Source: Alysiella filiformis
GTDB taxonomy: Bacteria; Pseudomonadota; Gammaproteobacteria; Burkholderiales; Neisseriaceae
Direction: 5' to 3'
DNA: 64,000 nt
NCBI RefSeq assembly: GCF_014054525.1
Contig: NZ_CP059564.1
Span: forward strand, 1,312,357-1,376,356
The position numbers and the translations under genes are program-made. This document shows positions 19,914 through 23,670 of the stretch, piece by piece. The notes under the pieces are model-generated. The model had not been told where the DNA came from. It saw only the letters and a program-made list of their open reading frames with translations, and did not search any database. How positions within the stretch are numbered: position 1 is the first letter of the stretch; the number at the start of each line of letters is the position of its first letter.

Positions 19914-21350
19914 ATGGAAACGCAAACTTACAACTACAAAGTGGTGCGCCAGTTCGCCATCATGACGGTAGTTTGGGGCATAGTCGGTATGTTGGTGGGC
20001 GTGATTGCCGCCGCACAGCTTTACTGGCCAGCCTTAAACTTGTCAGACGTTGCGCCTTGGTTCCACTTTGGACGCATTCGCCCACTGCATACCAATGCCG
20101 TGATTTTCGCCTTTGGCGGTTGTGGCTTATTTGCCACGTCTTATTATGTCGTGCAACGAACGTGTAATGTTCGTTTGTTTGGCGGCAATATTTTGCCAGC
20201 AATTACCTTTTGGGGCTGGCAACTCATCATTGTTCTGGCGGTGATTACCCTGCCTTTGGGCTACACATCGGGTAAAGAATACGCCGAATTGGAATGGCCA
20301 ATTGACATTTTGCTGACCATTATTTGGGTTGTTTATGCAGTGGTGTTTTTTGGTACGATTTCCAATCGCAAAATCAAACACATTTATGTGGCAAACTGGT
20401 TTTATGGCGCATTTATTTTAGCCGTTGCGTTGTTGCATATTGTGAACAGTATGGCGATTCCCGCAGGTTGGTTCAAATCCTACTCAGTGTACTATGGCGC
20501 GATTGATGCCATGGTGCAATGGTGGTACGGTCATAATGCCGTGGGTTTCTTCTTAACTGCCGCATTTTTGGGCATGATGTACTATTTCGTACCCAAACAA
20601 GCAGGTCGTCCCGTTTACTCCTACCGTTTGTCGGTGGTGCATTTTTGGGCATTGATTTTTACCTATATGTGGGCAGGTCCTCACCACTTGCACTACACCG
20701 CATTGCCTGATTGGACACAATCTTTGGGTATGGTATTGTCCATTATCCTGTTTGCCCCATCTTGGGGTGGCATGATTAACGGCATCATGACCCTGTCTGG
20801 CGCATGGCACAAATTGCGCACCGACCCCATTTTGAAATTCTTGGTGGTGTCTTTATCATTCTACGGTATGTCCACATTTGAAGGACCCATGATGTCCATC
20901 AAATCCGTGAACGCATTGAGCCACTACACCGACTGGACAGTGGGACACGTTCACTCTGGCGCATTGGGTTGGGTGGGCTTTGTTACCATCGGTTCCATCT
21001 ACTACCTCGTACCCCGTTTGTACGGTCAAAAAGAAATGTACAGCACCAAATTGATTGACGTGCATTTCTGGATTGCCACTTTGGGCGTGGTGTTGTACAT
21101 CACATCAATGTGGGTGTCGGGTGTAACACAAGGCATCATGTGGAGCCAATTGAACCCAGACGGCACATTAACCCACTCTTTTGTGGCATCAGTTAGCCGT
21201 TCTATGCCTTTCTATTTCATTCGTTTCTTGGGTGGCGCGTTCTATGTAAGCGGCATGGTTATCATGGCGTACAATGTGTATCGCACCATCACGCGGGGTA
21301 AACCTGTGGAAGCGGAAATCCCTGCTTTGACACAATCTCAACACCACTAA
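19914..21350 (+). CDS. ccoN: cbb3-type cytochrome c oxidase subunit I
   Basis: Catalytic inner-membrane subunit that reduces oxygen at a haem b3-CuB centre and pumps protons. About 12 transmembrane helices; conserved histidines in [10 protein letters not shown] (haem b ligand), AGPHHLHYT (CuB) and [14 protein letters not shown] (haem ligands), and Tyr in the helix VII region. The ATG at 19914 follows GGAG at 10 nt; an in-frame ATG at 19899 has no such site. First gene of ccoNOQP under an FNR promoter. Confidence 0.96.
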
Positions 21351-21371: not shown

Positions 21372-21983
21372 ATGAAATTACAACCATTAGTTGAAGAAAA
21401 AGTGGGTTTTTTGATTGTATTCACATTGATTGTGATTAGCTTTGGTTTGTTGGTGCAAATTGTTCCCCTGTTTGCCAGTAAGGAAGTGATTACCCCAACC
21501 GAAGGTGTCAAACCCTATAATGCTTTACAGGTAGCAGGACGCGACATTTATGTGCGTGAAGGCTGCTACAACTGCCATTCACAACAAGTTCGCCCTTTCC
21601 GTGCCGAAACCGAACGTTACGGACACTACTCTGTGGCAGGCGAATCGGTTTACGACCACCCATTCCAATGGGGTTCCAAACGCACAGGTCCTGACTTGGC
21701 GCGTGTGGGCGGTCGCTATTCCGATGAATGGCATCGCATTCACTTGCTCAATCCACGCGATGTTGTGCCAGAATCCAATATGCCAGCCTTCCCATGGTTG
21801 GCGCGCAATAAAGTGGACGCAGATGAAGTGGTTCGCCACATGAAAGCCTTGAATAAAGTGGGCGTACCCTACACCGAGGAAGATTATGCCAAAGCAGCCG
21901 ATGAGCTGAAAAACAAATCTGAATTGGACGCTGTGGTTGCCTATCTGCAAGGTTTGGGTTTGGCATTGAAAAATAAAAGGTAA
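21372..21983 (+). CDS. ccoO: cbb3-type cytochrome c oxidase subunit II
   Basis: Membrane-anchored monohaem cytochrome c subunit. One N-terminal transmembrane helix (about 12-34), then the haem-binding CYNCH at residues 65-69 and an axial Met in SNMPAFPWL. Length 203 aa fits the family. It passes electrons from CcoP to CcoN. Starts 21 nt after ccoN. Confidence 0.96.
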
Positions 21984-21989
21984 AACATC

Positions 21990-22172
21990 ATGGAATTGAT
22001 TTGGGCAAAGGTATTGTTTACCGTTATCGTATTTATGAGTTTTTTATTGGTGCTGTTGATTGTGTTCAACAAGCGCAATAAGGGCAACTACAATCATGCT
22101 GCACACAGCATCATTGACGACCCCGATACACCAGAACCTGCCCAAATCAAACCTGATAACGGAGCAAAATAA
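21990..22172 (+). CDS. ccoQ: cbb3-type oxidase small subunit CcoQ
   Basis: A 60-residue single-helix protein (ELIWAKVLFTVIVFMSFLLVLLIVF) with a charged tail, in the fixed position between ccoO and ccoP. CcoQ stabilises the complex in other bacteria. The stop overlaps the ccoP start by one base (TAATG). Confidence 0.9.
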   Translation: MELIWAKVLFTVIVFMSFLLVLLIVFNKRNKGNYNHAAHSIIDDPDTPEPAQIKPDNGAK

Positions 22173-23614
22173 TGGAATCACAATTCACTTCCCCCTTTTG
22201 GCACTATTATATTGTTGCCATTGTCGTAGGCAGTATCATCTGGATTGTTTGGCTTTTGCTGTCGCAAAACGTGGTCAAAGTGAAAAAAGGTGAAGATGTT
22301 AAAACCATGGGGCATTCGTGGGACGGTATTGAAGAATACAACAACCCCTTGCCACGTTGGTGGTTTTATATGTTCATCATGACCATCCTTTTTGGTATTG
22401 GCTACTTGGTTTTTTACCCTGGTTTGGGCGATTTCAAGGGCATTGGTTTCAATGGAAAAACTTGGAGCAGCGTGAGCCAATATCAAGATGAAATGAAAAA
22501 AGCCGAAGCGGAAACGGGCGCATTGTATGCCAAATATTCGGGCATGAGCGTTACCGAGGCTGCACAAAATGTTGAAGCCATGACCATGGGTAAAAACCTG
22601 TTTGATACTTATTGTATTCAATGCCATGGTTCGGACGCGCAAGGTTCACGCGGTTTCCCCAATTTGACCGATACAGACTGGCTTTATGGTGGTACGCCTG
22701 AACACATTCAGGAAACCATTACCAAAGGTCGTTTGGGTGTGATGGCAGCATGGGGACCTGTGTTGGGCGAAGAGCGTGTGCGTGATGCGGCGCATTTCGT
22801 GATGTCTTTGTCGGGTCGTGAGCATAATGAAGAGCGTGCCATTCGCGGTAAAGAGATTTTTGCTGCAAATTGTGCCGTGTGTCATGGTGCTGATGGCAGT
22901 GGCAATCAAGGCATGGCACCGAATTTGACCGATGATGTTTGGTTGTGGAATGGCAGCGAAAAAGGCATCATTGAAACCATTACAGGTGGTCGCCATAACC
23001 AAATGCCTGCTTGGGAAGGTTTCTTGACCAAAGAGAAAATCCACTTGCTGACTGCTTATGTTTGGGGTAAATCACACCCAGAAGGCAAAGCCTTGCCAAC
23101 CGATACCAAAAATGCGGTTCGTGGCGTGGCACCTGCTGAGGAACAAGCGGCAAAAGCAGAACCTGTTGCTGAGCCTGCTCCTGTTGCTGCAAGCCCTGCC
23201 GAGGCGGTTTCAGCCAGCCCTGCGGTGGAGGCGGCGGTTTCTGAACCTGCTGTGGAAGACAAAGCCCCTGTTGCGGCTGATAAAGCCAGCGTGGTAAACG
23301 AAAACGGTGTGGTGAAATTCTATTTCGCTACTGCCAAGAGCGATGTGGCTCCCGAAGCCGACAAAGTGGCAGCCGAAATCGTGAAAGCCGCCAAAGCAGG
23401 CAAAAAACTGGTCATCAGTGGTTTTACCGACAGCACAGGCAATGCGGAAAGCAATGCCAAATTGTCCAAAAAACGTGCCGAAGCGGTACAGGCTTTCTTG
23501 AAAAAGCAAGGCGTGAAAGCGGAAAGCATGGAATTGCGTAAACCTGAAAACAGCACAGGTGGCAAAGGCGATAATGCCGAAGGTCGCCGCGTTGAAGTGA
23601 AAATTGAAGGTTAA
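22172..23614 (+). CDS. ccoP: cbb3 oxidase dihaem subunit III fused to an OmpA-like domain
   Basis: Electron-entry subunit of the oxidase. An N-terminal part with two membrane segments (about 8-30 and 63-82) is followed by two cytochrome c domains with CIQCH (148-152) and CAVCH (234-238). Standard CcoP ends near residue 315. Here an Ala/Pro/Glu-rich linker (about 318-376) leads to a domain of about 100 residues with the OmpA/Pal/MotB pattern: FYFATAKSDVAPEA, SGFTDSTGNAESNAKLSKKRA with Asp420 and Arg435 at the expected diaminopimelate-binding positions, and GRRVEVKI at the end. Topology places this domain in the periplasm, so it could tether the oxidase to peptidoglycan. No third haem motif is present, unlike Neisseria gonorrhoeae CcoP. 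Confidence 0.95.
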   Translation: MESQFTSPFWHYYIVAIVVGSIIWIVWLLLSQNVVKVKKGEDVKTMGHSWDGIEEYNNPLPRWWFYMFIMTILFGIGYLVFYPGLGDFKGIGFNGKTWSSVSQYQDEMKKAEAETGALYAKYSGMSVTEAAQNVEAMTMGKNLFDTYCIQCHGSDAQGSRGFPNLTDTDWLYGGTPEHIQETITKGRLGVMAAWGPVLGEERVRDAAHFVMSLSGREHNEERAIRGKEIFAANCAVCHGADGSGNQGMAPNLTDDVWLWNGSEKGIIETITGGRHNQMPAWEGFLTKEKIHLLTAYVWGKSHPEGKALPTDTKNAVRGVAPAEEQAAKAEPVAEPAPVAASPAEAVSASPAVEAAVSEPAVEDKAPVAADKASVVNENGVVKFYFATAKSDVAPEADKVAAEIVKAAKAGKKLVISGFTDSTGNAESNAKLSKKRAEAVQAFLKKQGVKAESMELRKPENSTGGKGDNAEGRRVEVKIEG

Positions 23615-23635: not shown

Positions 23636-23670
23636 AAAAAGCTGCCTGAAAACGTTTCAGGCAGCTTTTT
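23636..23670 (+). terminator. DUS-pair terminator of ccoNOQP
   Basis: Sixteen-bp arms AAAAAGCTGCCTGAAA and complement with a 3-nt loop and T-run, 22 nt after the ccoP stop. Confidence 0.88.

Follow-up and report, generated by a model that had tools for sequence, protein, structure and literature searches.

A cbb3 oxidase subunit CcoP with a C-terminal OmpA-like domain: a predicted peptidoglycan tether shared with other energy enzymes

The window analysed here, a stretch of 64,000 nucleotides from the genome of Alysiella filiformis, carries a ccoNOQP operon for a cbb3 oxidase on its forward (+) strand. The genes ccoN, encoding the catalytic subunit I (19917..21350; PF00115, 386.5 bits), and ccoO, encoding the mono-haem subunit II (21372..21983; PF02433, 279.3 bits), both score above their Pfam cut-offs. 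They are followed by ccoQ, encoding 60 amino acids (21990..22172), whose FixQ match (PF05545, 24.7 bits, E 2.2e-5) stays below the cut-off of 29 but is positioned as expected. The final gene of the operon, ccoP (22172..23614), is one uninterrupted reading frame of 480 codons and a stop, and its start overlaps the ccoQ stop by one base (TAATG). The product is assigned to CcoP based on a score of 314.8 bits with the ccoP equivalog model TIGR00782 (cut-off 179.95), on two CxxCH motifs and a FixP_N region, and on the ccoN, ccoO and ccoQ genes alongside.

Besides FixP_N, the protein has matches to the Cytochrome_CBB3 and OmpA families. The FixP_N region (residues 43-88, 22298..22435; PF14715, 85.1 bits) holds the second hydrophobic helix. 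The two haem c sites are CIQCH at residues 148-152 (22613..22627) and CAVCH at residues 234-238 (22871..22885), and C148, C151 and H152 as well as C234, C237 and H238 are invariant in 20 of 20 aligned CcoPs. A linker of 69 amino acids rich in Ala, Val, Pro and Glu (residues 306-374, 23087..23293) leads into an OmpA-like (PF00691) domain of the peptidoglycan-binding type (residues 375-480, 23294..23611). Since no third CxxCH domain was found past the linker in the window CcoP, it is not the tri-haem form. The first-pass annotation, made from the sequence alone, had described such a CcoP-OmpA fusion with two normal haem c domains at 22172-23614, and its open reading frame, coordinates and length are all correct.

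HMMER finds a significant PF00691 match, as that annotation had anticipated, at residues 384-455 (49.7 bits against a gathering threshold of 27.2, E 4.8e-13). The alignment spans profile positions 1-76 of 98 and ends there, the last loop being shortened relative to Pal/OmpA. This compact loop ends with EGRRVEV, and in the alignment the asparagine of the N-R-R-V motif is absent from the window domain; the N-R-R-V loop is typical of Pal/OmpA and was not treated as defining PF00691. The predicted diaminopimelate ligands Asp420 (codon 23429..23431) and Arg435 (codon 23474..23476) stand at the positions first reported, 15 residues apart, and are kept in 38 of 38 OmpA-tailed CcoPs. We take the diaminopimelate-holding residues of A. 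baumannii OmpA to be D271 and R286, also with a spacing of 15.

Behind ccoP, at 23640-23666, a pair of near-palindromic repeats forms what, judged by eye, is a terminator-like hairpin. The repeats, AGGCTGCCTGAA (46 copies) and AGGCAGCCTGAA (42 copies), occur across the whole window (1-64000) and belong to the type called DNA uptake sequences in Neisseriaceae.

An AlphaFold model of the OmpA-like domain, built from a 3-row alignment (mean pLDDT 69.8, pTM 0.71), is predicted to adopt the C-terminal fold of Pal/OmpA. It matches Pal (2hqs_G) with a Z of 14.3, the A. baumannii OmpA-like domain with a diaminopimelate-containing peptide (3td5_A) with 14.1 and diaminopimelate-bound OmpA (3td4_B) with 13.8. 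In the model of full-length CcoP (mean pLDDT 67.7, pTM 0.42) the OmpA-like domain is folded, helices span residues 8-34 and 62-81, and residues 312-375, which take in most of the linker, have a pLDDT below 50. The sequence contains no hydrophobic stretch between the haem domains and the OmpA-like domain, and the model places no transmembrane helix at 312-375. From sequence and model we infer, in agreement with the initial proposal, that the domain would be periplasmic, on the same side of the membrane as the haem domains.

With the window CcoP as query, 83 Neisseriaceae genomes from 12 genera yielded CcoP cores in 66 genomes of 10 genera. Initially 37 of these had an OmpA tail, 18 a third haem and 11 neither. 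Two of the latter were reassigned: G001 is an OmpA-tailed CcoP interrupted by a contig end, and in G028 a haem tail is broken, as a stop interrupts the third-haem stretch and the frame is also disrupted further up. The stop resembles that published for meningococcus in the available text of Aspholm et al. (2010, PMC2924362). Thus counted, OmpA-tailed CcoPs amount to 38 of 66 (37 in one frame, and G001 split) in 8 of the 10 CcoP-bearing genera, and 9 of 66 are bare or truncated. One of the genomes, G010, retains a decayed OmpA remnant downstream of the ccoP stop while its near-identical neighbour G036 is intact. The OmpA-like tail is dispensable in evolution, given these bare or truncated proteins. 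Genus set g5, inferred to hold Neisseria, includes 46 CcoPs, of which 24 are OmpA-tailed, 18 haem-tailed and 4 neither. Lack of the domain in close relatives, named by the first-pass annotation as a refutation, is not what the survey shows: relatives share the tail, G066 of the same genus among them, though a near genus (G082, g12) is without it. Outside Neisseriaceae no OmpA-tailed CcoP was found among the best 80 named CcoP loci, where the two tailed ones are both Neisseria, or in a 250-genome sample of the order at E 1e-12. Among the matches listed, only two CcoP frames outside the family exceed 400 amino acids (G084, 451 aa; G146, 411 aa), and neither matches the tail profile at E 1e-12 in the order sample.

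The tail is constrained in sequence. Pooled over 14 pairs of related species, which have species in common and are not independent, pN/pS is 0.064 for the CcoP core, 0.11 for the OmpA-like domain and 0.34 for the linker. The domain is under purifying selection and is therefore held much more strictly than the adjoining linker.

To reconstruct the history of the two tails we used a tree of ccoN, ccoO and the ccoP core with 73 rows, including 7 tail-less outgroups (SH-aLRT support only; G043 and G062 without ccoN or ccoO). The tail-less genus g4 branches first, ahead of the other 63 rows, which carry an OmpA or a haem tail or are bare. On this tree three changes are required for the haem-tailed rows, which occur in two places, each within OmpA-tailed lineages: one comprises G012, G021 and G040, the other the remaining 15 and the broken G028. 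The basal fork of the larger group with the OmpA-tailed G016 is unresolved in the core tree; in another tree the group forms one clade (100/96). On the rooted tree, the OmpA-tailed CcoP predates the tri-haem form. The first-pass annotation was right that the CcoP C-terminus is a site of module exchange between lineages, while its statement that Neisseria carries an extra haem is better read, based on the trees, in the reverse direction, with the haem form replacing the OmpA form.

A second tree was calculated for the haem domains of 18 CcoP third haems, cytochrome c5 from 26 genomes and a CccA-like protein of ~180 amino acids from 7; other matches were left unused. Here three CcoP third haems, those of G012, G021 and G040, each have the c5 from the same genome as their partner, the two being identical in G012; the remaining 15 group with the c5/CccA stock of their lineage. 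A single clade of CcoP haem tails is rejected (AU p 2e-7). In G012, ccoP (L027:2512-3168) and the c5 gene (L234) share 678 aligned bases at 90% identity, of which ~276 lie past the ccoP stop, and a recent ccoP/c5 exchange took the 3' flank along. Shared DNA also extends ~50 bases beyond the stop in G021 (with c5) and in G027 (with the CccA-like gene). Separately, the cytochrome c5 encoded at locus L239 of G036 (415 aa) has not two but three haem c domains, and G010 has a similar frame of 402 aa. Taken together, the data suggest that the OmpA module held the CcoP C-terminal position first, behind a similar linker, and that a haem domain has replaced it at least twice. The accessible text of Aspholm et al. 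(PMC2924362) describes a single origin, in which c5 was fused to a primordial di-haem ccoP and contributed the linker, and a tri-haem CcoP in all Neisseria species with data at that time.

The domain at the CcoP tail also ends two other kinds of protein in Neisseriaceae genomes, a DUF937-TM-OmpA protein of ~400 amino acids and a short TM-linker-OmpA protein of ~220, whose transmembrane stretches were judged by eye. The ~400-residue class was at first taken for nitrite reductase or cytochrome c peroxidase, until its sequence proved to be DUF937-TM-OmpA. In a domain tree of 62 rows (only 107 columns; two ordinary OmpA rows removed beforehand) the CcoP tails of g1, g2, g3, g5 and g8 (29 rows) group with DUF937-OmpA, and 8 further rows, from g6, g9 and g11, join short TM-OmpA. 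The branch separating the two has a support of 100/100, and a single clade of all CcoP OmpA tails is rejected (AU p 0.00097). Either CcoP acquired the OmpA domain twice or the tail of one lineage was overwritten. A wider tree of 78 rows keeps the first group, i.e. CcoP type A with DUF937 (100/99), and puts the g6/g9/g11 tails outside it in two places, one adjoining the short TM-OmpA of another family, so no one donor is fixed for them.

DNA comparisons within genomes were made for both paralogues. Of 11 genomes compared for DUF937-OmpA, 9 show an identity of the CcoP tail to their own gene that is 1.8 to 7.2 points above the other-genome mean, and the remaining 2 lie at or below it; for short TM-OmpA, identity exceeds the mean in 10 of 15, mostly slightly. 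These values give only a weak hint that the CcoP OmpA tail and its paralogues recently converted one another. The only other match to the compact tail profile at E 1e-12 in the window genome is a short TM-OmpA protein (L054:2771-3517; G000:C1:2412270-2413016), in which the diaminopimelate Asp is lost by deletion.

We then compared CcoP tails with nitrite reductase, which the first-pass annotation had named as a possible partner of a fixed oxidase. This idea is inapplicable to the window genome, where nothing matches TIGR02376, the family of Cu nitrite reductases. Across Neisseriaceae the model scores above cut-off in 46 of 83 genomes, in short (~400-430 aa) and long (~490-530 aa) forms. Among 20 AniA loci fetched, all 17 long forms read carry one CxxCH in the added C-terminal stretch; the short forms read (G026, G038) have none, and the G040 locus runs into unread bases. 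The 18 haem-tailed genomes include 17 with a short-form reductase and the unread G040, while the 38 OmpA-tailed genomes divide into 17 with the long form, 7 with a short or broken one and 14 with none; of these 17 long forms 15 were read, whereas G019, G043 and most short forms were classed by length, and the counts are clustered on the tree and not independent. Haem-tailed CcoP goes with the AniA form that lacks a C-terminal haem, as would be expected if the CcoP haem tail serves a reductase that has no haem of its own.

Using the CcoP-tail profile we searched 250 genomes of the window's GTDB order (E 1e-12 or better, up to 18 candidates per genome scored) and obtained 52 matches in 37 genomes. 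Most of the frames were identified by reading, some HppA by sequence motif and tails, and two short ones by script. They comprise the membrane pyrophosphatase HppA (14), oxidase subunit II with haem c (7), PufC (3) and CcoP (2). Further frames are short TM-OmpA (11, one with unclear start), BON-type proteins (4), DUF937-OmpA (3) and RND adaptors (2), and the remainder consists of a c-type cytochrome, a 149-aa frame and 4 ordinary OmpA lipoproteins or porins. The tailed HppA are L293, L295, L304, L307-L315, L319 and L360 (the last one an end only, at a contig edge); as 160 of the 250 genomes have an HppA, the tailed protein is a minority form. In 7 genomes an aa3-type oxidase subunit II carries a haem c domain and then the OmpA-like domain (L296, L297, L299, L300, L302, L316, L317). 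The photosynthetic reaction-centre cytochrome PufC is OmpA-tailed in 3 genomes with one genus label, g24 (L301, L306, L318). Pfam confirms host and OmpA in 5 of 5 proteins tested (H_PPase 2, COX2 2, CytoC_RC 1). The two RND-type efflux adaptors (HlyD/CusB-like) with a C-terminal OmpA-like domain are L305 and L322, with Pfam run on L305.

The ligand pair is largely retained in these tails, with Asp in 12 of 13 aligned HppA (lost in L315), 7 of 7 CoxB and 3 of 3 PufC, and Arg in 23 of 23. In the weakly resolved 78-row tree, every CoxB and PufC tail and the majority of the HppA tails are placed away from those of CcoP, which points to fusions made independently. All energy-enzyme hosts should have a periplasmic C-terminus; for HppA we assume this from solved relatives.

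Across 369 genomes sampled from the class, 38 of the 44 matches listed lie outside the order, and no energy-enzyme tail was found among the 27 of these 38 that were read; up to 13 candidates per genome were scored, so rare cases can be missed. The 27 are OmpA-family proteins, at least two of them (L330, L331) TM-OmpA with a compact loop. A plasmid search with the OmpA-like domain gave 7 weak matches. Among the titles and abstracts listed from the openly accessible literature, none concerns an OmpA-tailed CcoP, oxidase subunit II or pyrophosphatase.

Based on these data we consider it likely that the di-haem CcoP with its OmpA-like tail is a non-covalent tether of the oxidase to peptidoglycan. 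Its compact tail is shared with other energy enzymes. The flexible linker of ~70 residues would span the distance from the oxidase head to the wall, where the OmpA-like domain would bind the diaminopimelate of peptidoglycan stems non-covalently via Asp420 and Arg435. With the domain bound, the whole inner-membrane oxidase would be tethered and its lateral movement limited, and the complex would add a link between inner membrane and wall. In two Neisseria lineages the OmpA tail would then have been lost, with a haem domain of c5/CccA stock in its place. As the compact subfamily is also fused to other periplasm-facing energy enzymes, its distribution suggests a common task, namely holding energy-converting complexes in place at the wall, instead of a function peculiar to cbb3 chemistry. 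Energy enzymes account for 27 of the 52 frames, a recurrence which suggests that selection acted either on their being held in place or on their value as abundant anchors of the wall.

A tail of this kind could have other explanations. The OmpA-like domain might dock the oxidase to another envelope protein or aid its assembly without holding peptidoglycan. Pal, for comparison, has TolB as a partner in addition to the wall, the compact loop departs from the Pal/OmpA form, and the loss of Asp in the short TM-OmpA L054 and in one HppA tail implies that the fold can persist without the full ligand pair. We regard docking as unlikely, given that both Asp and Arg are present in 38 of 38 CcoP, 7 of 7 CoxB and 3 of 3 PufC tails and that no partner common to CcoP, CoxB, HppA, PufC and the RND adaptor is known, their one shared feature being a C-terminus expected to be periplasmic. 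The purifying selection on the domain, compared to the adjoining linker, makes it very improbable that the tail is a passenger, one of several modules shuffled through Ala/Pro/Ser-rich linkers by recombination and drift without benefit, even though tails were repeatedly lost and replaced and, in G012, module and 3' flank were exchanged at the DNA level. We rejected a frameshift, assembly or annotation artefact joining two genes, which the first-pass annotation had listed as a danger to its proposal, as practically inconceivable: no point in its support was found, and tail and core form one open frame in 37 of the 66 Neisseriaceae CcoPs, from 8 genera, including single-contig genomes (e.g. G000 and G014) and two Neisseria records (L096, L097).

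As to the history, OmpA tail and third haem may each have been gained once, with conversion between paralogues mimicking several gains in the domain trees. Conversion would account for the CcoP haem domains that pair with the c5 of their own genome (G012, G021, G040) and for the CcoP and DUF937 tails that pair within G066; the 78-row tree gives no one donor for the g6/g9/g11 tails. Gene conversion after one gain is possible for the domain trees and less so for the core tree, which is separate and also puts the haem-tailed rows in two places. A single clade is, moreover, rejected for OmpA tails and haem tails alike, and we hold the single-gain course to be conceivable but improbable. Our broader proposal combines two parts: tethering of energy complexes to peptidoglycan would be recurrent in this order (CcoP, aa3 subunit II, HppA, PufC), with the module attached more than once, and Neisseria would have traded the anchor at least twice for a haem domain wiring the oxidase to denitrification. 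The chances that this combined proposal is right appear to us evenly balanced.

Respiratory complexes are usually pictured as free in the membrane, or as held only by lipids and each other. If the tether holds true, some bacteria would either pin their energy complexes to the wall or exploit these proteins, which are abundant, to anchor the wall at the inner membrane. CcoP evolution in Neisseria would also have to be reread, in that the tri-haem subunit would replace a wall anchor twice and not extend a plain di-haem protein once.

Several known systems resemble the CcoP fusion. MotB and TssL/TagL are likewise inner-membrane proteins with a periplasmic stretch and a C-terminal OmpA-like domain, and the CcoP domain model matches 5m38 (TagL) and 3s02 and 5y40 (MotB). 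In CcoP, in contrast, the host is a respiratory oxidase subunit and not a motor stator or secretion machine, and the last loop is compact. A C-terminal extension of photosystem I PsaB from Gloeobacter violaceus has been described in older literature. By sequence, its C-terminus is OmpA-like (chain 7f4v_aB, residues 754-864), with E 1.9e-6 for the window domain and E 3e-10 for the tail profile. It thus shares with CcoP that an energy-converting membrane protein has a C-terminal part matching the CcoP-tail domain, but enzyme and phylum are different and the match is by sequence only. According to the available text of the structure paper (PMC9000952) the PsaB model stops at residue 727, and the main text of the paper mentions neither peptidoglycan nor OmpA. 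OmpA-tailed HppA, CoxB and PufC have the same compact OmpA-like subfamily as CcoP, mostly behind Ala/Pro-rich linkers and with Asp in 22 and Arg in 23 of 23 aligned tails, while in the weakly resolved domain tree they mostly stand elsewhere than the CcoP tails. A further likeness is to the tri-haem CcoP of Neisseria (PMC2924362, available text), which is the same subunit with an Ala-rich linker before a module added in the same C-terminal position. The added Neisseria module, a third haem c, can relay electrons towards nitrite reductase, whereas the window module is OmpA-like and haem-free; and while that account has one origin from a di-haem ancestor, here the haem form stands in two places amid OmpA-tailed lineages.
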